A program made the translations under genes and the position numbers. DNA of 36,114 bases, taken from NCBI GenBank assembly GCA_024405415.1, contig JAKSOV010000008.1, positions 1 to 36,114 on the forward strand, given 5' to 3'. Source of the stretch: Akkermansia sp. (GTDB lineage Bacteria > Verrucomicrobiota > Verrucomicrobiia > Verrucomicrobiales > Akkermansiaceae). The notes under the pieces are model-generated. The model saw only the letters and a list, made by a program, of their open reading frames with translations, was not told the origin of the DNA and did no database searches. Below are positions 20,756-27,778 of the stretch, piece by piece. Within the stretch, counting starts at the first letter, position 1. Every line of letters starts with the position of its first letter.

Positions 20756-23341
20756 TCAGAGTTGCAGCGGCACGAGCGGAAGGTGGCGCAGGGAGCGCGG
20801 CGCGGGCAGCTCGATGCGGCTGTCGGGGGAGTTGCTGTTGACTTCCTCCGGGCTGTCGTCCACGCCCACTTCCTCCGCGCCGCCGGCGGGGTCGCCGAGG
20901 TCGGCGGCGTCCTTATAGCGCGGGTTGAGGGAGGTGTCACACTCGTAGGGGTCCTTGCCCAGCAAGGCAGAGGATTTCGGCAGCACGGGCAGCACGGGCA
21001 GCACGCGGGAGGAGCTCATCTGATTGCTGCCGGAGTCCAGGAAATCCACCAGCGAGGGGCTGCCGTCCCCGTGCACGGAGCAGGAGCCGAGGGAGACATC
21101 CCCCTTGTGGAAATACTCGCGGTAGGTGGGGCGCACATAGCCCGCTTTGCCGTCCTGCATGACGGACTCGAAGCAGAAGTTAGTGGCCAGCTGGCCGCTG
21201 ACGGTGCAGATTTCCACCTCCTCGGTATCCTCGGGCAGCGGCAGGGGATTGTCCTCGTAGCGCTTGCCCGCGGCGCGGAACACGGCACCCATGACAGGGC
21301 CGCAGGTGTCGGAGCCGAAGGCCTCGGGATAGATGGGCTGATGATCGTTGAGATAGCCGATCCAGATACCGCAGGTGAAGGAGGAGTTGTAGGCGAAAAG
21401 GGCCGTATCGGAAAAGTCGTAGTTGGTGCCGCTCTTCACCGCGCCGTTGAAGCCGTCCGGCAGGTAGGGGTTCACTCGCTGGGCGGAGCCTTTGTTGAGC
21501 GACTCGCGCATGATGCTGTGCAGGCGGTAGGCGGTGCAGCCGCGCGTGCTGTTGACCATGTTGTGGGTGACGGCCAGCGGGTTCTCCCACAGGATATTGC
21601 CCGAGCTGTCGGTAATCTTGGTGACGATGTAGGGCGCAAGCGGGCGCTTACCCGCGTTCGGGAACACGGTGTAGGCCATGGTCACCTCCTTGAGGGAGGC
21701 GGGCTCGGTGCCGAGGTAGGCGCGGGGGTAGAACTGGGGCTTGGCCTCCGTGCTGCTGGGTATTCTCGGCGGCGGGGTGATACCCACGTTGGTCAGCGTG
21801 TCGGCAAAGGCTTTCGCGCCCTTCTGCGGGTGGGACCCGAGAGAAATGCCGAGGCGGGCGGAGGCGGCAATCTTGCTCCACTCCAGCGCCTGGCGCGCCG
21901 TCACGGAATCGAGGTAGCGGCCCTTGTCCACCTCCATGCCCCACTCGCCGAGGATGCCCTCCGAGCCGCCGATACCGGCCAGGCGGTTGTCCATGGCATC
22001 ATCCACCAGGCGCGAGCAGGGGGAGTAGCCGTTATCGAAGGCGCTCATGTAGAGGAAGGGGAGCATGGCCGTGCCCAGCGGACGCTTGCCCGCGTCGATG
22101 ATGTCGAAGTTGTCGCGGTCGAAGCTGCGCCCGCCCACATACACCAGCACGCCGCCCGTAGCGTTGTCCACGGTGAGCACGGCACCGTCGAGGTAGCGGT
22201 GCTGCGCGCAGCGGGGGTCGGAACGGTCGGCGAACTTGACGTGGGTGTAGCCCTCGTGCTTCTCCAGCTCATCGAGCTGCGCCGTGAGGGCCTTTTCCGC
22301 CGCCTCCTGCATCTGTTTGTCGATGGTGGTGTAGACGCGGATGCCGCGGCTCTTGACAATCTCCTCGCCGCGGGTGGGATTTTGGAAAATGTCGATAGCC
22401 TGCTGCTGCACGAGCGCATGCAGGAAGGAGGTGTTGCGGCGCAGGGGGTTGGGGTTGAGCCCCAGCGGCGTTTCCTTCACGCGGGCGGCCTCCGTGGGGG
22501 TCAGATAGCCCGCGCGCTCCATGCGGTCAATCACGTCGTTGCGCCAGCGCCAGTTAAGGTCCGCGTTGCGGATGGGGTTGTAGTTCTCGGGGTTTTTGAT
22601 GAGGGCGGCAATGCTGGCGGCCTCGCGCACGGTGAGGTCCCCGGGCTCCTTGCCGAAGTAGCCGAGCGCGGCGGAGCGGATACCGTAGAAGCCGCGGCCG
22701 AAGTAGACGCGGTTCAGGTAGAACTCCATGATTTGCTGCTTGTCGTACTTGTCCTCGATGCGGCGGGCGAGGAAAATCTCCACAATCTTGCGCTCGTAGC
22801 GGCTGCCGCCGCGGGCCTGCGTGCGGCGCTCGAGGTCGTAGGCGTTGCGGGCGAGCTGCTGGGTGATGGTGGAGGCGCCTTGGTTGGCCTTACCGTGCGC
22901 AGCGGCAGCCTCCTTGGCAGCGCGGAGAATGCCCCAGGGGTCAAAGCCGTGGTGCGTCCAGAAGTTCTTGTCCTCCTGCGCCACGAGGGCGTCAATCATG
23001 CTCGGGGAAATCTTGTCGTAGGTGACGTAGCTGCGGTTTTCATCGTAGATACGGCCTATTTCCTGCTTGTTGCGGTCGTAGATAATGCAGGGATGGTCGA
23101 GGTTGTTGATGTCCTCGAGGTTGAATTCATCTGCCCAGCGCTGGTATTTGGCTGTAATGGTGAGGAATAGCATGTAGCCGCACACCCCCATAGCCGCCAA
23201 GCCTACGAAAAACACAATCAGCAGGCGGCGGAGCAAACGCCACACCCAGCTGCCGCGGCGGTGCGGGGCAGCTTCCTTGCCGTGGCGGCGGCGATTCTCG
23301 GCCGCCTTACGGCGGTTCTGGTAATCATCCAAAGGCTCCAT
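20756..23341 (-). CDS. class A penicillin-binding protein: glycosyltransferase plus degenerate transpeptidase domain
   Basis: An 861-aa peptidoglycan synthase anchored by one N-terminal membrane helix (about residues 38-63). The GT51 domain is intact: EDKNFWTHHG, GASTITQQLARN, RKIVEIFLARRIE and IMEFYLNRVYFG. The transpeptidase domain follows, but the SxxK motif position reads T424-A-M-L427 in RPLGTAMLPFLY, so both the nucleophilic Ser and the Lys are missing. The SxN position reads SKI in LEWSKIAAS. Only KSGT (K636 onward) remains. It should polymerise glycan strands but not cross-link them or bind penicillin covalently. The C-terminal tail of about 130 residues is acidic and Pro/Ser-rich. 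It heads a five-gene run with sufS. Confidence 0.88.
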   Translation of the reverse strand: MEPLDDYQNRRKAAENRRRHGKEAAPHRRGSWVWRLLRRLLIVFFVGLAAMGVCGYMLFLTITAKYQRWADEFNLEDINNLDHPCIIYDRNKQEIGRIYDENRSYVTYDKISPSMIDALVAQEDKNFWTHHGFDPWGILRAAKEAAAAHGKANQGASTITQQLARNAYDLERRTQARGGSRYERKIVEIFLARRIEDKYDKQQIMEFYLNRVYFGRGFYGIRSAALGYFGKEPGDLTVREAASIAALIKNPENYNPIRNADLNWRWRNDVIDRMERAGYLTPTEAARVKETPLGLNPNPLRRNTSFLHALVQQQAIDIFQNPTRGEEIVKSRGIRVYTTIDKQMQEAAEKALTAQLDELEKHEGYTHVKFADRSDPRCAQHRYLDGAVLTVDNATGGVLVYVGGRSFDRDNFDIIDAGKRPLGTAMLPFLYMSAFDNGYSPCSRLVDDAMDNRLAGIGGSEGILGEWGMEVDKGRYLDSVTARQALEWSKIAASARLGISLGSHPQKGAKAFADTLTNVGITPPPRIPSSTEAKPQFYPRAYLGTEPASLKEVTMAYTVFPNAGKRPLAPYIVTKITDSSGNILWENPLAVTHNMVNSTRGCTAYRLHSIMRESLNKGSAQRVNPYLPDGFNGAVKSGTNYDFSDTALFAYNSSFTCGIWIGYLNDHQPIYPEAFGSDTCGPVMGAVFRAAGKRYEDNPLPLPEDTEEVEICTVSGQLATNFCFESVMQDGKAGYVRPTYREYFHKGDVSLGSCSVHGDGSPSLVDFLDSGSNQMSSSRVLPVLPVLPKSSALLGKDPYECDTSLNPRYKDAADLGDPAGGAEEVGVDDSPEEVNSNSPDSRIELPAPRSLRHLPLVPLQL

Positions 23342-23398
23342 GCGTACCCCCCTATCCTAGCAGGAAAGCGGCGGAATAGCAAGAGGGAAAGGGGGCAA

Positions 23399-23581
23399 TT
23401 TGAGATATGAAATATGTGATTTTCGATTTGTGATTTAGAAATAGAGTCTCGCCACACCCGAAGAAAAAGAATCGCATCTGACGGAACGTCAGATGCGGTT
23501 GCTACGGCTGCGGCGACAGCCGCACGAACTTTCCAAATCAAAAATCTCAAATCACATATTTCTTATCACAAATCCTTTATC
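23399..23581. repeat. inverted heptamer-hairpin element with internal terminator
   Basis: The left array (23399-23440) has units TTTGAGA, TATGAAA, TATGTGA, TTTTCGA, TTTGTGA and TTTAGAA. The right array (23535-23581) has the inverse-type units AAATCAA, AAATCTC, AAATCAC, ATATTTC, TTATCAC, AAATCCT and TTATC. Inside lie a 10-bp perfect stem CGCATCTGAC (23473-23482, 23488-23497) and a GC hairpin GCGGC-GACA-GCCGC (23510-23523) followed by ACGAACTTTCC. On the minus strand the long stem is followed by ATTCTTTTTC, so it probably ends the NUDIX/small-protein transcript. The right array overlaps the last codons of the neighbouring gene and supplies its stop. Confidence 0.85.
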
Positions 23582-23973
23582 AAGCAGCCGAGCGGCGCAA
23601 GCGGGTTCTGCGGCGGGGGGGCCTCGCGGAAGGTGCCCGTGCGGCGGTCGAGCAGCCATGTGCTGCCGTCCGTACGCTGGAGGAGCAGCTGTTCATCCGA
23701 AACGGATTGCCCGTAAAGCCAGCCGCAGGGACGGTCGCCGAAACGGCGGTCCCACGGTGTGTTGCCGCTGCGGCTGTAGATGGTGTAATACACCGCGCCC
23801 GCGACCTGCTTTTCCGCCAGGTACCAGTCGGGGTATGCCGCCGAGCCGATGCAGATTTCGCGCACGGCGTCATCGGGACGCGTGCTGCTCTGCCACCAGA
23901 AGGCTACCCACGCTCCCGCCGTCAACAGCACGGTGAGAAGGACGATACAGGCCTTGACGACGATGCTTTTCAT
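23566..23973 (-). CDS. small membrane-anchored protein, unknown function
   Basis: A 135-aa protein with an N-terminal hydrophobic segment (about residues 8-27, ACIVLLTVLLTAGAWVAFWW), either a membrane anchor or an uncleaved signal. The rest is probably periplasmic, with W/Y-rich strands (AAYPDWYLAEK, AVYYTIYSRSG, STWLLDRRTGTF). I do not recognise the family. The ATG overlaps the NUDIX stop (ATGA). The last residues, LIKDL, and the stop codon are encoded by a heptamer array, which suggests the original C-terminus was altered when the element arrived. Confidence 0.7.
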   Translation of the reverse strand: MKSIVVKACIVLLTVLLTAGAWVAFWWQSSTRPDDAVREICIGSAAYPDWYLAEKQVAGAVYYTIYSRSGNTPWDRRFGDRPCGWLYGQSVSDEQLLLQRTDGSTWLLDRRTGTFREAPPPQNPLAPLGCLIKDL

Positions 23974-24479
23974 CGTTCCTGTTGCAGGAAATACAGGCCC
24001 GCGTAGATGCGGGAGTCGATGGAGACGCCCGCGGCTGTCTTAGCTGCCAGCCATGCGTCGATGTCATCCAACGGGGCCTCGCAGACGGTGATGTTCTCGT
24101 TCTCCACGCCGCCGCCCTGCGCCACGCGGCGCAGCCCTGTGGCCAGGTAAAAGTGCAGCGTCTCGCTCGTCAGCCCGGGCGAGCTGGGGGAGGTGAAGAG
24201 GTAGCGCATCTCCGCTGCCTCGTAGCCCGTTTCCTCCAACAGCTCGCGGCGCGCGGCGGCGAGGTCGCTCTCGGGTCCCTCATCCCCGCTCAGCCCCGCG
24301 GGAAAGCAGAGGCTGCGCTTGCCGATGGGCGGGCGGAACTCCTCCACCAGCAGCACCTTGTTTTCGGGCGTGCAGGCAAAAATCATCACCGCGCCCGTGT
24401 TGTTCACGCGCTCGCAGTACTCCCAGCGCCCCTCGCGCACGAGATTGAGGAACTTTCCGTGGTACAGCAGCTCTGCCAT
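23970..24479 (-). CDS. NUDIX hydrolase, ADP-ribose pyrophosphatase-like
   Basis: A 169-aa cytosolic hydrolase of nucleoside diphosphate derivatives, probably ADP-ribose or a nucleotide sugar. The NUDIX box is read as GDEGPESDLAAARRELLEET followed by GY, close to the canonical pattern with an irregular first glycine. The upstream VEEFRPPIGKRSLCFPAG matches ADP-ribose pyrophosphatases. The ATG at 24479 lies 6 nt after a -10 box, so a leaderless mRNA is predicted. A small membrane protein gene overlaps its stop. The accessory islet begins just beyond its promoter. Confidence 0.9.
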   Translation of the reverse strand: MAELLYHGKFLNLVREGRWEYCERVNNTGAVMIFACTPENKVLLVEEFRPPIGKRSLCFPAGLSGDEGPESDLAAARRELLEETGYEAAEMRYLFTSPSSPGLTSETLHFYLATGLRRVAQGGGVENENITVCEAPLDDIDAWLAAKTAAGVSIDSRIYAGLYFLQQER

Positions 24480-24485
24480 GGCGTT

Positions 24486-24514
24486 GTTGTAGCACATTCC
24501 GCGCCGCGCGTCAA
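24486..24514 (-). promoter_or_regulatory. promoter of the NUDIX hydrolase gene
   Basis: On the minus strand TTGACG (24514-24509) and TACAAC (24491-24486) are 17 bp apart. Six nt separate the -10 box from the ATG at 24479, so the transcript should start at or within a base or two of the start codon. The rest of the gap up to 24736 shows no gene; it ends in an A/C-rich, Shine-Dalgarno-free leader of the capsid gene. Confidence 0.55.
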
Positions 24515-24736
24515 CCACGCTTCCCCGCGGGAGGGCAGGTCGCGCGAACGGGGCGGATAGGGGTGACAGAGGCTGAAAAGCGTGCTTTGCTTTTGCACGG
24601 CAAGTGCGCCGCCGAGCGACCAATTTCCGCCCCTGCGGAAACCGCAACACGGCACCGCGCGGTCCGACTCCGCTACCCTTGCGGACAATCACCCCACACC
24701 GTTTGCCGTCACCAACACCAAACAACACACACAACA

Positions 24737-25645
24737 ATGGCTGATATCGAACAGAACTACCAGATTAAGTATTCCGAGAAGTGGGGCTCTTACCTCCAGC
24801 AGGAGGCCTCCCGACTCGACAAGTATGTAACCGTGGAGAGCGGTCTCACCGGCAAGATGGTCGCCTATGACCAGTACGGTCTGCTGACCTTCACGGAGAA
24901 GACGGGCCGCATGGGCACCACCACCCCCGCGGAGGCTCCCACCTACCGCCGCATCATGCACCCCCACCTCTTCACCAAAGCCATCGGTTTCGATGAGTTT
25001 GACGCGAAGAAGCTCGCCAACATCGACGTGCCCGTCTCCAAGACCATCGAAAGCCTGCGCGCCGCCGCCGGCCGCTGCATGGACAAGGTGATGATTGACG
25101 CCTTCCTCGGCGTGAACTACACGGGCGAAGTGGGCGGCACGCAGGTGGCCTTCCCCGCCTCGCAGACCATCGCCGTGGACTACACCGACACGGGCGTGGA
25201 TGAGACCTCCAACCTCACCATCGACAAGCTGCGCCACGCGCTGACCATGCTGCAGAAGGCCGAGGCTTGGAGCGAGGACCGCCGCGCCTACGGCGATGAG
25301 CTCGTGCTCGCCTGCTCCAGCAGCCAGATCAACGCCCTGCTCCAGCAGCCCGAGGTCTCCAGCTACGACTACAACACCGTCCGTGCGCTGGCCGAGGGTA
25401 AGATTGACTCCTTCATGGGCTTCAAGATTATCCGCACCGAGCAGCTGCCCGTCACGACCGAGGGCGTGCGTTCCTGCCTTGCTTGGGTCAAGAGCCGCGC
25501 GCAGTTCGGCATCTGGGACGACTTCAAGGTCAAGCTCTCCGTCCGCGACGACCTCGATGAGACCCTCCAGATTCGCGCCAAGTTCGCCTGCGGCGCCACG
25601 CGTCTGCAGGAGGAAGGTTTCGTCAAGATTCTCTGCGCCGAGTGA
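24737..25645 (+). CDS. solitary phage-type major capsid protein
   Basis: A 302-aa protein that matches, by pattern, phage major capsid proteins (Phage_capsid_2-like group). The signs are the N-terminal YSEKWGSYLQQEASRLDKYV, AYDQYGLLTF, YRRIMHPHLF, FDEFDAKKLANIDVPVSKT, the AAGRCMDKVMIDAFLG helix, LTIDKLRHALTMLQKAEA, YDYNTVRALAEGKIDSFMGFKI, and the C-terminal GATRLQEEGFVKILCAE. The protein appears complete, with no frameshift. No portal, terminase, tail or scaffold gene is nearby. The start is ATG 24737, with an A/C-rich leader and no Shine-Dalgarno. Strong hairpins follow the stop, so it is a single-gene unit. It may be a prophage remnant, part of a satellite, or a domesticated shell. Confidence 0.8.
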   Translation: MADIEQNYQIKYSEKWGSYLQQEASRLDKYVTVESGLTGKMVAYDQYGLLTFTEKTGRMGTTTPAEAPTYRRIMHPHLFTKAIGFDEFDAKKLANIDVPVSKTIESLRAAAGRCMDKVMIDAFLGVNYTGEVGGTQVAFPASQTIAVDYTDTGVDETSNLTIDKLRHALTMLQKAEAWSEDRRAYGDELVLACSSSQINALLQQPEVSSYDYNTVRALAEGKIDSFMGFKIIRTEQLPVTTEGVRSCLAWVKSRAQFGIWDDFKVKLSVRDDLDETLQIRAKFACGATRLQEEGFVKILCAE

Positions 25646-25705
25646 GTGCTCGGCGCGCTTTAAGAGAGGCGCACACAAAGCCCGCTCGGCGCAAGCCGAG
25701 CGGGC
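25637..25705 (+). terminator. tandem terminator hairpins after the capsid gene
   Basis: The first hairpin, CGCCGAG (25637-25643) with CTCGGCG (25650-25656), overlaps the stop codon. The second has an 11-bp perfect stem GCCCGCTCGGC (25680-25690), loop GCAA, and its complement (25695-25705), followed by GATTT. The T tract is weak, but two stems in tandem should end or process the transcript. Confidence 0.7.
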
Positions 25706-25713
25706 GATTTGGT

Positions 25714-25770
25714 ATTTATCATTTTGAATTTATCATTTATAAAGTTTTAAATTCGCACGGCTTCGCCGTG
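25714..25770 (+). repeat. heptamer-hairpin element (ATTTATC type)
   Basis: Units ATTTATC (25714), ATTTTGA, ATTTATC and ATTTATA run to 25741, with degenerate AAGTTTT next. The linker ends AAATTCG and leads to hairpin CACGGC (25756-25761), loop TTC, GCCGTG (25765-25770). The order array, TTCG linker, GC hairpin is the same as at the other loci. Confidence 0.8.
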
Positions 25771-25781
25771 GAATAATGAAA

Positions 25782-25813
25782 AACGGCCTGACCTTGCGGT
25801 CAGACCGTTTTTG
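25782..25813 (-). terminator. bidirectional terminator
   Basis: The 12-bp stem AACGGCCTGACC (25782-25793), loop TTGC, and GGTCAGACCGTT (25798-25809) has one internal mismatch. T tracts lie on both strands. On the minus strand it sits about 20 bp after the stop of the PEP-CTERM remnant and was probably its terminator. Confidence 0.8.
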
Positions 25814-25832
25814 TTTCATTTGTTATCCGCTC

Positions 25833-25877
25833 TCACTTCCTCTTGCGGCGGGCGGCGAGGGAGGCCAGAGCGAGCAG
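25833..25877 (-). pseudogene. 3' remnant of a PEP-CTERM protein gene
   Basis: Read on the minus strand, these bases encode LLALASLAARRKRK and a stop. This is the membrane helix end and basic tail of a PEP-CTERM/exosortase sorting signal, as found in great numbers in Akkermansia and relatives. The next codon upstream (25880-25878) is a stop, so everything N-terminal, including the PEP motif, is gone. The terminator at 25782-25813 lies downstream in the right orientation. The break coincides with the 5' end of the recombinase fragment. Confidence 0.65.
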
Positions 25878-26481
25878 TTACCACAAGGGGCGTTCTATCC
25901 TGCACTCCATCTTTGCCTATGGCATCCGCCAAGAGTGGTGTGACAGGAACCCCGTGGATGCCATCGAAGCCCCGCGCGTGAAAGAAAAGCCCATCGAGCC
26001 GCTGAGCTTGGAAGAAGTCTCACGGCTGGAGCGCGCCGCCGAACGCCCAGAGCATAGGGACATGCAGCTCTCGCTGAAGCTCATGCTCTACTGCGGCATC
26101 CGCCCCGCAGAAGTGACACGCATCGACCCGCAGCGGGATATTGTGGGGGATGAGCTTATCATCCGCCCGAACACCAGCAAGACAGGCGGCGGGCGTGTGG
26201 TGCCGTTGAGAAAGGTTGCCCGGTACATCAAGCGGCACCGCGGTGCCCTCACCATCCCCAACCGCTGGGAGCAACGCTGGCGCGCCCTGCGCCGCGCCGC
26301 ACGCTTCCGAATCTGGCGCCCCGACATCTGCCGCCACACCTTCGCCACCTACCACGCCCGCCACTTCCGCGATTTGGCTGCGCTCCAACTTGAAATGGGC
26401 CACACCACCCCGCGGCTCCTCCACTCCCGCTACCTCTCGCCGATAGGGCAAACAGTAGCGCGAAAGTTTTGGCTGTCATGA
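25878..26481 (+). pseudogene. 5'-truncated tyrosine recombinase (phage-type integrase)
   Basis: About 200 residues of a tyrosine recombinase are open to a TGA at 26481. They cover the end of the core-binding domain (SYHKGRSILHSIFAYG, then WCDRNPVDAIEAP) and the whole catalytic domain. Catalytic residues: Arg in CGIRPAEVTRI, Lys in TSKTGGGRVVPL, Arg-His in DICRHTFATY, His in LEMGHTT and Tyr in HSRYLSP; the first His of the HxxR motif is Asp. There is no ATG, and the N-terminal half of the core-binding domain (some 80-90 residues) is missing. The 5' edge lies exactly where the PEP-CTERM remnant breaks off. It is probably non-functional. Confidence 0.8.
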
Positions 26482-26498
26482 GGATAAAATCGCCCTTT

Positions 26499-26580
26499 CG
26501 GCTCAGAAATGGTGTTTTTTGCTTCCTTTTCGGCTCAAAACGGGGTTATAATGAGCCGTAAACACGCTCAGAATGAGCCG
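26499..26580 (+). promoter_or_regulatory. fic promoter with four phased operator half-sites
   Basis: The heptamer CGGCTCA occurs at 26499-26505 and 26531-26537, and its complement TGAGCCG at 26552-26558 and 26574-26580, each with flanking A/T (consensus TTTCGGCTCA). A degenerate CGCTCA lies at 26565-26570. Start-to-start distances are 32, 21 and 22 bp, close to whole helical turns. A perfect TATAAT (26547-26552) lies between and overlaps the third site; no good -35 is seen. This fits repression by the winged-helix domain of the Fic protein itself. Confidence 0.65.
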
Positions 26581-26586
26581 AAAAAC

Positions 26587-27621
26587 ATGAGAGAGGAACG
26601 CCGCATTATCGAAGTCCTGCAAAATGTCGAAAGTTTAAGCCGCGCCGAGCTGGCTTCAGCCATCGCATTTCAGGATAGCGAAGCCACCCTGAAACGCGAG
26701 TTGCAACGACTCGTGCGGGACGGAAAAATCAGCCTGTTGGGTAAAGGCCGCAGCACGCGCTACGCCCTCAGCCCCGCGGGGCGTGTGCTCTCTACCGTGG
26801 ACCTTGATACCTATTTCAGCCGAGAGATTGATGAGCGCCACATCCACGCATCTTTCAACTTTGATTTAGTGGAGCACATTCTGCCGCAAGTCAAGCTGTT
26901 CTCGGAGGATGAGCTGGAACACCTGAGTTCTCTGCAATCGACCTTTAGGGCGAACATTGCAGCTCTTCCGCCGACGGAGCAGCGCCGCGAGATGACGCGT
27001 CTCGGCATTGACCTGAGCTGGAAATCTTCCCAGATTGAGGGCAACACCTACACCCTGCTGGAAACGGAGCGGCTCCTGTTGGAAAAGCAGGCGGCCAACG
27101 GCAAGACGCGGGAGGAGGCTACGATGCTGCTCAATCACAAAAAAGCACTTGATTTCATCATCGACAACCCGGATTATCTCAAGAAACTCTCGGTGGCGCG
27201 TATCGAAGATATCCACCGCCTCTTGGTGCAGGATTTAGGGATTGAGCACAACATCCGCCAACGGCGCGTGGGCATCATCGGCACCAATTATCGCCCCTTG
27301 GACAACGAGTTCCAAATCCGCGAAGCCTTGGAAGCGACCAGCCGACTGGTCAATGGCACGGAGTGCGTTTTCAGCAAGGCTCTGTTGGTGCTGGTGCTAC
27401 TCTCCTACATTCAGGCTTTTACCGACGGCAACAAGCGCACCGCTCGCATCACGGCCAATGCCGTGCTGATGGCACACGGCTACTGCCCTCTCTCTTTCCG
27501 CAGCGTGGATTCCATCGACTACAAAAAAGCGATGCTCCTCTTTTACGAGCAGAATAACCTCGCCGCCTTCAAGCAGATTTTCATGGAGCAGTTTGAGTTT
27601 GCCGTCAACACCTATTTCTGA
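26587..27621 (+). CDS. Fic-domain protein with N-terminal winged helix
   Basis: A 344-aa protein. The N-terminal 60 residues form a winged helix (IIEVLQNVESLSRAELASAI, LQRLVRDGKISLLGKGRSTRY). A linker is followed by the Fic region with the inhibitory helix motif SSQIEGN (S148, E151), which in class II Fic proteins blocks ATP binding. The core motif reads QAFTDGNKRTAR: DGN and both Arg are kept, but the catalytic His is Gln276. The C-terminal part (PLSFRSVDSIDYKKAMLLFYEQNN) is typical of DNA-binding Fic proteins. Known Fic enzymes AMPylate proteins; activity here is doubtful. The start at ATG 26587 is chosen because TATAAT lies at 26547-26552; ATG 26551 would overlap it. It probably represses itself. 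Confidence 0.85.
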   Translation: MREERRIIEVLQNVESLSRAELASAIAFQDSEATLKRELQRLVRDGKISLLGKGRSTRYALSPAGRVLSTVDLDTYFSREIDERHIHASFNFDLVEHILPQVKLFSEDELEHLSSLQSTFRANIAALPPTEQRREMTRLGIDLSWKSSQIEGNTYTLLETERLLLEKQAANGKTREEATMLLNHKKALDFIIDNPDYLKKLSVARIEDIHRLLVQDLGIEHNIRQRRVGIIGTNYRPLDNEFQIREALEATSRLVNGTECVFSKALLVLVLLSYIQAFTDGNKRTARITANAVLMAHGYCPLSFRSVDSIDYKKAMLLFYEQNNLAAFKQIFMEQFEFAVNTYF

Positions 27622-27670
27622 TAACAGGAAAGGGAAAATCAAACACCGTATTGGTGGTGCAATGATAGAA

Positions 27671-27704
27671 AAAAGCGGTCTGACGCTCGCGTCAGACCGC
27701 TTTT
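27671..27704 (+). terminator. terminator between fic and atpC
   Basis: A 15-bp perfect stem, AAAAGCGGTCTGACG (27671-27685), loop CTCG, and its complement (27690-27704), has T and A tracts on both sides. It can end both fic (plus) and the ATP synthase operon (minus). Confidence 0.88.
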
Positions 27705-27711
27705 CGAATCC

Positions 27712-27778
27712 TGCGGCGGAGCCGCACGAACTGCTCAAATCAAAAATCGTAAATCCAAAATCCTAAATCTCAGATTCA
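27712..27778 (-). repeat. heptamer-hairpin element at the atpC stop
   Basis: Hairpin TGCGGC (27712-27717), loop GGA, GCCGCA (27721-27726); linker CGAACTGCTC; then units AAATCAA (27737), AAATCGT, AAATCCA, AAATCCT, AAATCTC and AGATTCA (to 27778). The last unit contains the atpC stop codon (TGA, 27778-27776 on the minus strand). In the direction of the operon the order is stop codon, array, linker, GC hairpin, terminator. Confidence 0.85.

Follow-up and report, generated by a model that had tools for sequence, protein, structure and literature searches.

In the 2022 definition of Kogay et al., which supplies the criteria applied below, gene transfer agents (GTAs) are caudovirion-like particles that are built from caudoviricete-derived proteins and that encapsidate mostly random host DNA; their own genome is endogenized, often at multiple loci, and cannot be fully packaged in one particle; and they are vertically inherited, co-diversify with their host, and deliver the packaged DNA to other cells (PMC9662315). 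The genes of RcGTA are found in five loci, and that of BhGTA is probably spread across multiple sites (PMC9662315). Random host DNA is also packed by PBSX, a defective prophage (PMC7667829).

The gene described here lies in a window (the whole stretch of Akkermansia DNA that was analysed, 36,114 nucleotides in length) for which a first-pass annotation had reported a complete, solitary major capsid gene with its own A/C-rich leader, closed by tandem hairpins and neighboured by NUDIX, recombinase-fragment and fic genes. These local features were borne out (Table 1): the reading frame is intact, the A/C-rich stretch corresponds to a linker before the start codon, both hairpins are present, and the three neighbours were recovered by family search. 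Capsid orthologues in other genomes likewise end in hairpins, the sequences of which differ. The encoded protein, P0001, matches the PF19821 (Phage_capsid_2) family over its entire profile (positions 1-293 of 293; E 2.6e-81, 273.5 bits against a gathering cut-off of 25), as well as the PHROG 3437 major head protein (7e-51). A sequence search for relatives of P0001 with solved structures found none, and the structural matches of an AF2 model built from 33 relatives (pLDDT 78, pTM 0.72) were HK97-fold capsids, including those of podophages, the RcGTA capsid (6tb9) and an encapsulin. By family match and predicted fold, P0001 is an HK97-type major capsid protein.

The further statement that no other phage genes accompany the capsid gene was correct locally, as none was found near it in the window and no phage cluster was found at capsid loci, but did not hold across the genome, in which genes for a terminase, portal, scaffold, tail tube, nozzle and internal-virion-like proteins occur at other sites. 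Long antisense reading frames across the capsid gene were considered and rejected as high-GC artefacts. A mobile unit driven by the neighbouring integrase was also rejected, since the integrase shows no conservation at the other capsid loci and the capsid gene descends vertically instead; the recombinase fragment, a 60% relative of which is found approximately 3 kb downstream of the capsid gene at another locus (L041), is probably an unrelated insertion. Within positions 23341-27775, the capsid-facing side of PBP1 has no gene in common with 19 other Akkermansia PBP1 loci, which mostly have genes in common with each other on that side, and this points to a rearrangement breakpoint around the capsid locus.

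Table 1. Features at the capsid locus, in window coordinates, and family assignments of partner genes encoded elsewhere in the genome
Feature	Position or locus	Strand	Basis
NUDIX gene	23970-24482	-	capsid neighbour
Conserved promoter-like block upstream of leader RNA, GTGACAG ... GTGCTTTGCTTTTGCA	24563..24597	+	alignment
Conserved structured 5' leader RNA	24598..24708	+	RNAalifold consensus
A/C-rich linker before start codon, unstructured, without Shine-Dalgarno	24709..24736	+	sequence; unpaired in fold
Major capsid protein gene (P0001)	24737..25645	+	ATG at 24737 to TGA at 25645, uninterrupted, 302 aa
Terminator-like hairpin, 11 bp	25680..25705	+	hairpin scan
Second terminator-like hairpin, then T-run	25788..25803	+	hairpin scan
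C-terminal tyrosine-recombinase fragment, N-terminal part missing	25843-26481	+	capsid neighbour
Fic gene	26509-27621	+	capsid neighbour
Portal	portal cluster		PF12236, E 1e-142
Scaffold-like	portal cluster		PHROG 3742
Bbp19-like	portal cluster		PF25181
TerL	terminase locus		PHROG 2
Tail protein			PHROG 394

The region upstream of the capsid gene is itself conserved. Aligned upstream regions of 45 orthologues contain TGAC-A and GTGnTT blocks at a fixed distance before the leader; a sigma-70 consensus scan did not call the corresponding block in the window, and its function as a promoter is therefore only putative. In lineages other than A. muciniphila, a conserved stretch of approximately 110 nucleotides ends about 30 nucleotides before the start codon. 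The RNAalifold consensus of the leader from 33 orthologues contains 16 base pairs, seven of which are changed on both sides, and the closing stem of the window leader pairs CGGCAA (24598-24603) with TTGCCG (24703-24708). The structure must be regarded as supported rather than proved, because the covariation energy term across those 33 orthologues is only -0.27 kcal/mol and the single-sequence z-scores extend from -0.5 to -2.9 (with the window leader at -2.9 and the others weaker). Matches to a model of this RNA (R1) were confined to the position immediately 5' of the capsid gene, where they occurred in 41 genomes; a search of Rfam with the leader returned no family, and inspection of the nozzle and portal-cluster loci found no copy upstream of either. 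The leader was considered as a shared regulon signal and rejected in that role, as it occurs at capsid genes only, and it is probably the 5' untranslated region through which the dosage of the capsid is controlled.

Full-length capsid orthologues, with 60-88% identity, were found in 56 of 76 Akkermansia genomes and in nearly all cases as a single gene; beyond Akkermansia, the only matches to the capsid were phage-like (about 23-34%). The first-pass annotation had suggested that relatives be searched for the same gene in the same place, and the outcome was divided. The gene occupies one conserved place within the A. muciniphila clade, the right flank of which is also common to a further genome (G066), whereas in the remaining lineages the locus has moved many times. 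A neighbour common to two capsid loci was found for 8-10% of genome pairs, versus 63-100% for PBP1 and 100% for atpD, a favourable but not perfect control, as the conserved atp operon inflates the value for atpD and one conserved gene lies next to PBP1. Capsid and PBP1 distances were correlated both across 46 genomes (Mantel r 0.95, 0 of 2000 permutations) and across 36 non-muciniphila genomes (Mantel r 0.76, again 0 of 2000), and host clades recur in the capsid tree. By these comparisons the capsid gene has been inherited vertically and has co-diversified with its host, as the GTA definition describes.

The suggested check on selection gave capsid dN/dS values of 0.00-0.13, with a middle value of about 0.04; these values are approximate because several of the pairs have high dS, and they indicate that the gene is under strong purifying selection. 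The findings that were to have spoken against a retained gene (absence from close relatives accompanied by relaxed selection, or an identical copy in a complete prophage) did not materialize: orthologues are widespread in the genus, selection is not relaxed, and a search of the window's own genome (G000) for a second capsid copy found none, that genome yielding one capsid, one terminase and one portal match and no identical prophage copy. Elsewhere, a second capsid gene (61%) is present in G062 at L166 10382-12494, away from the conserved capsid locus, where it adjoins a gene for a 149-residue phage protein and a gene that, as read by eye, is tyrosine-integrase-like; it may represent a related remnant or element. 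The same 149-residue phage gene lies beside the capsid gene of G015, and was rejected as a general partner, having been found only there, at the second G062 copy and as weak matches in prophages.

The nearest phage relatives of the capsid are Akkermansia prophages, in G060 and G061, in which a 60-63% capsid is found beside scaffold, tail and internal proteins, with a portal and a terminase in the same stretch. Searches with three G061 prophage proteins (terminase, portal and nozzle) as queries gave homologues of each in a set of genomes almost identical to that of the capsid; they lie far from the capsid and are usually single in a genome. In the window genome, the capsid (contig C101), terminase (C68), portal (C54), nozzle (C42) and a gp14-like internal protein (C85) are each encoded on a contig of their own, and in G059 the terminase is located at 463 kb, the capsid at 1787 kb, the gp14-like gene at 1893 kb, the nozzle at 2208 kb and the portal cluster at 2504 kb; the terminase gene of G059 spans 463,024-464,562 and its capsid gene 1,787,053-1,787,949. 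The particle genes are thus fully endogenized at no fewer than five loci, mostly hundreds of kilobases apart in complete genomes, and their span (from 463 kb as far as 2504 kb in G059) would be far beyond the head capacity of a podovirus. Because the search for these genes relied on targeted queries, the list of them is probably incomplete.

The terminase locus comprises TerL and two internal-virion-like genes, and the portal locus comprises a tail-tube gene, a small conserved gene, the portal, a Bbp19-like gene and a scaffold-like gene; inspection of translations indicated that the partner loci are flanked by housekeeping genes. Two more conserved small genes, encoding about 157 and 63 residues, lie upstream of the portal in L242 (7275-7745 and 7081-7269). 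In non-muciniphila lineages, the neighbours of all of the dispersed particle loci, and not those of the capsid only, are not conserved (0-1 of 15-28 pairs with a common neighbour; L241, L242, L261 and relatives), so that the particle genes have moved more than the control genes. The capsid, portal, TerL, scaffold-like and tail proteins are caudoviricete-derived by family match, and the capsid by fold as well. In an alignment of TerL from 10 genomes (one sequence being partial, and the motif assignment being our own reading), a KARQLGIST-type Walker A, an ESTHEGG motif and three acidic RNase-H-like nuclease positions are retained. The portals of the scattered set are 63-75% identical to that of the window genome and, among 142 genomes of the order, are found in Akkermansia only. 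No lysis gene, receptor-binding protein or shared regulator was identified in the gene set obtained with the targeted queries, which counts against its interpretation as a GTA. In G015, which lies outside the A. muciniphila clade, the gp14-like gene is found near TerL, an arrangement that, together with the phage gene adjoining its capsid, looks like an earlier stage of the break-up.

The behaviour of these genes as a set was examined at the four main loci (capsid, TerL, portal and nozzle), with matches assigned by score across the 76 Akkermansia genomes. All four were found in 50 genomes, none in 16, and two or three in 10, most of which are incomplete genomes. When placed on the PBP1 tree, the distribution corresponds to four whole-set changes (in G013, G097, G027 and one clade of 13), versus 14.5 for shuffled labels. 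The co-inheritance of TerL, portal and nozzle is judged from their presence and absence and from the ten-genome alignments, the dN/dS figures being those of the capsid only. A short terminase-like piece (32%) is found in G027 (C33:36869-37303), a genome without the other loci, and is possibly a remnant of their loss. The earlier description of a solitary, single shell gene was overturned by these results: partners are present elsewhere in the same genome, appear to follow the descent of the host, and disappear as a set, which argues for a dispersed GTA-like particle rather than a compartment or a satellite part.

In our assessment, the product of the gene is quite probably the capsid subunit of a dispersed, GTA-like particle that is specific to Akkermansia, is derived from a podovirus and has been domesticated by the host; the genes of the particle would have been scattered before most of the sampled species diverged. 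With the scaffold as support, the capsid protein would assemble about the portal; TerL would drive host DNA into the resulting head; and addition of the tail-tube protein, the nozzle and the internal virion proteins would give a short-tailed particle, by which DNA could be passed on to kin. That such particles form, package host DNA, are released and deliver it is predicted from the gene content. With respect to the GTA definition, an arrangement over multiple loci and vertical descent of the capsid are both evident, and so, to the extent that sequences can tell, is the phage origin of the proteins, whereas the particle itself and its DNA cargo are predicted; the system is therefore termed GTA-like here and is not counted as an established GTA.

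The same set of components would also serve in a scattered phage-derived particle that is assembled without gene transfer, acting either as a PBSX-like killer or, whether DNA-filled or empty, against competitors or phages; PBSX has been described as combining GTA-like packaging with bacteriocin-like action (PMC7667829). The terminase, portal and scaffold have, however, been kept with catalytic motifs, and a purely tail-based killer needs none of them; the internal-virion-like proteins, moreover, point to ejection of DNA, and this alternative appears unlikely. It is considerably harder to credit that the capsid forms an encapsulin-like nanocompartment or an anti-phage decoy and that the other phage genes are unrelated leftovers, even though the capsid gene lies apart from the other particle genes in every genome examined, has its own leader and terminator, and has neighbours that are not conserved outside of subclades. 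An encapsulin is recognized as a stand-alone shell with linked cargo and without packaging machinery, a description that does not fit the Akkermansia capsid; its loci have no conserved cargo neighbour, and unrelated leftovers would not be lost together, as the capsid, TerL, portal and nozzle have been in four lineages.

The break-up through rearrangement of a single ancient prophage, now in slow decay, would account for the phage ancestry of the genes, for the movement of their loci around the chromosome, and for the retention in G015 of the phage neighbour of the capsid and of a gp14-like gene near TerL. Capsid frames that are open and dN/dS values that are low across the genus, the conserved active sites of TerL and the retention of the genes as a set speak against such decay, to which we assign very little probability, and they agree with the view of the first-pass annotation that an intact gene, which is retained under strong purifying selection and appears domesticated, is not a decayed prophage. 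Its proposal of a satellite part or a stand-alone compartment fared less well, given packaging genes that are co-inherited and co-lost with the capsid. The second G062 capsid copy beside an integrase would suit a satellite or virus that keeps its structural genes in the host as a depot, but vertical descent and dispersal weigh against such an origin, no integrase, attachment site or replication gene is conserved at the particle loci, and no contiguous cluster with an integrase is found at capsid loci; its probability is negligible.

It is an even question whether Akkermansia, including A. muciniphila, possesses an active GTA made from fully dispersed podovirus-derived genes, with a capsid dosage controlled by the new leader RNA, that would move chromosomal DNA from one Akkermansia cell to another in the gut. 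In the mouse gut, Verrucomicrobia contigs were 3.5-fold over-represented among virus-like-particle (VLP) transduction patterns (Kleiner 2020; PMC7667829), a signal that fits such an agent but is not specific to it, as it is resolved at the level of the phylum and could come from prophages; several prophages of A. muciniphila YL44 are induced (PMC10197239) and provide an alternative source. Full-text searches of open-access literature for GTAs together with Akkermansia or Verrucomicrobia (as judged by title, abstract or count) yielded no report of such an agent, and a study of capsid-packaged DNA in the gut (PMC12946183) does not mention Akkermansia. If active, the dispersed GTA-like particle would be a GTA that arose independently, in a gut bacterium that is the subject of much research and is in therapeutic use, and it would offer a way for genes to be exchanged within the genus. 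Scattered genes of this type escape local prophage detection because their structural modules do not lie together, and other 'orphan' capsid genes may therefore also be parts of scattered particles.

Podophages of the PF19821 family (Pelagibacter phage HTVC010P-like and environmental phages) possess a homologous capsid (32-36%), and the Akkermansia prophages of G060 and G061 also carry counterparts of the portal, scaffold, nozzle and internal protein genes; both, however, are contiguous phage genomes, whereas the present set is scattered and appears to be inherited with the host. Encapsulins likewise display an HK97 fold and are host-encoded, but are stand-alone shells with cargo, whereas the Akkermansia capsid is co-retained with packaging machinery and has no conserved cargo neighbour. 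PBSX is a contiguous prophage-like cluster in Bacillus, from which the scattered particle genes of Akkermansia differ in arrangement. BhGTA/VSH-1 of Brachyspira and the Bartonella GTA represent, as the Akkermansia system would, independent domestication events, and differ from it in host and phage lineage. RcGTA and the alphaproteobacterial type I GTAs are likewise derived from tailed phages, occupy several fixed host loci, descend vertically and are under purifying selection. RcGTA, however, keeps most of its structural genes in a main operon and is siphovirus-like, whereas in Akkermansia the capsid, portal, terminase and nozzle genes of the predicted particle each reside at a locus of their own, the parts are podovirus-like, and the host phylum is Verrucomicrobiota.
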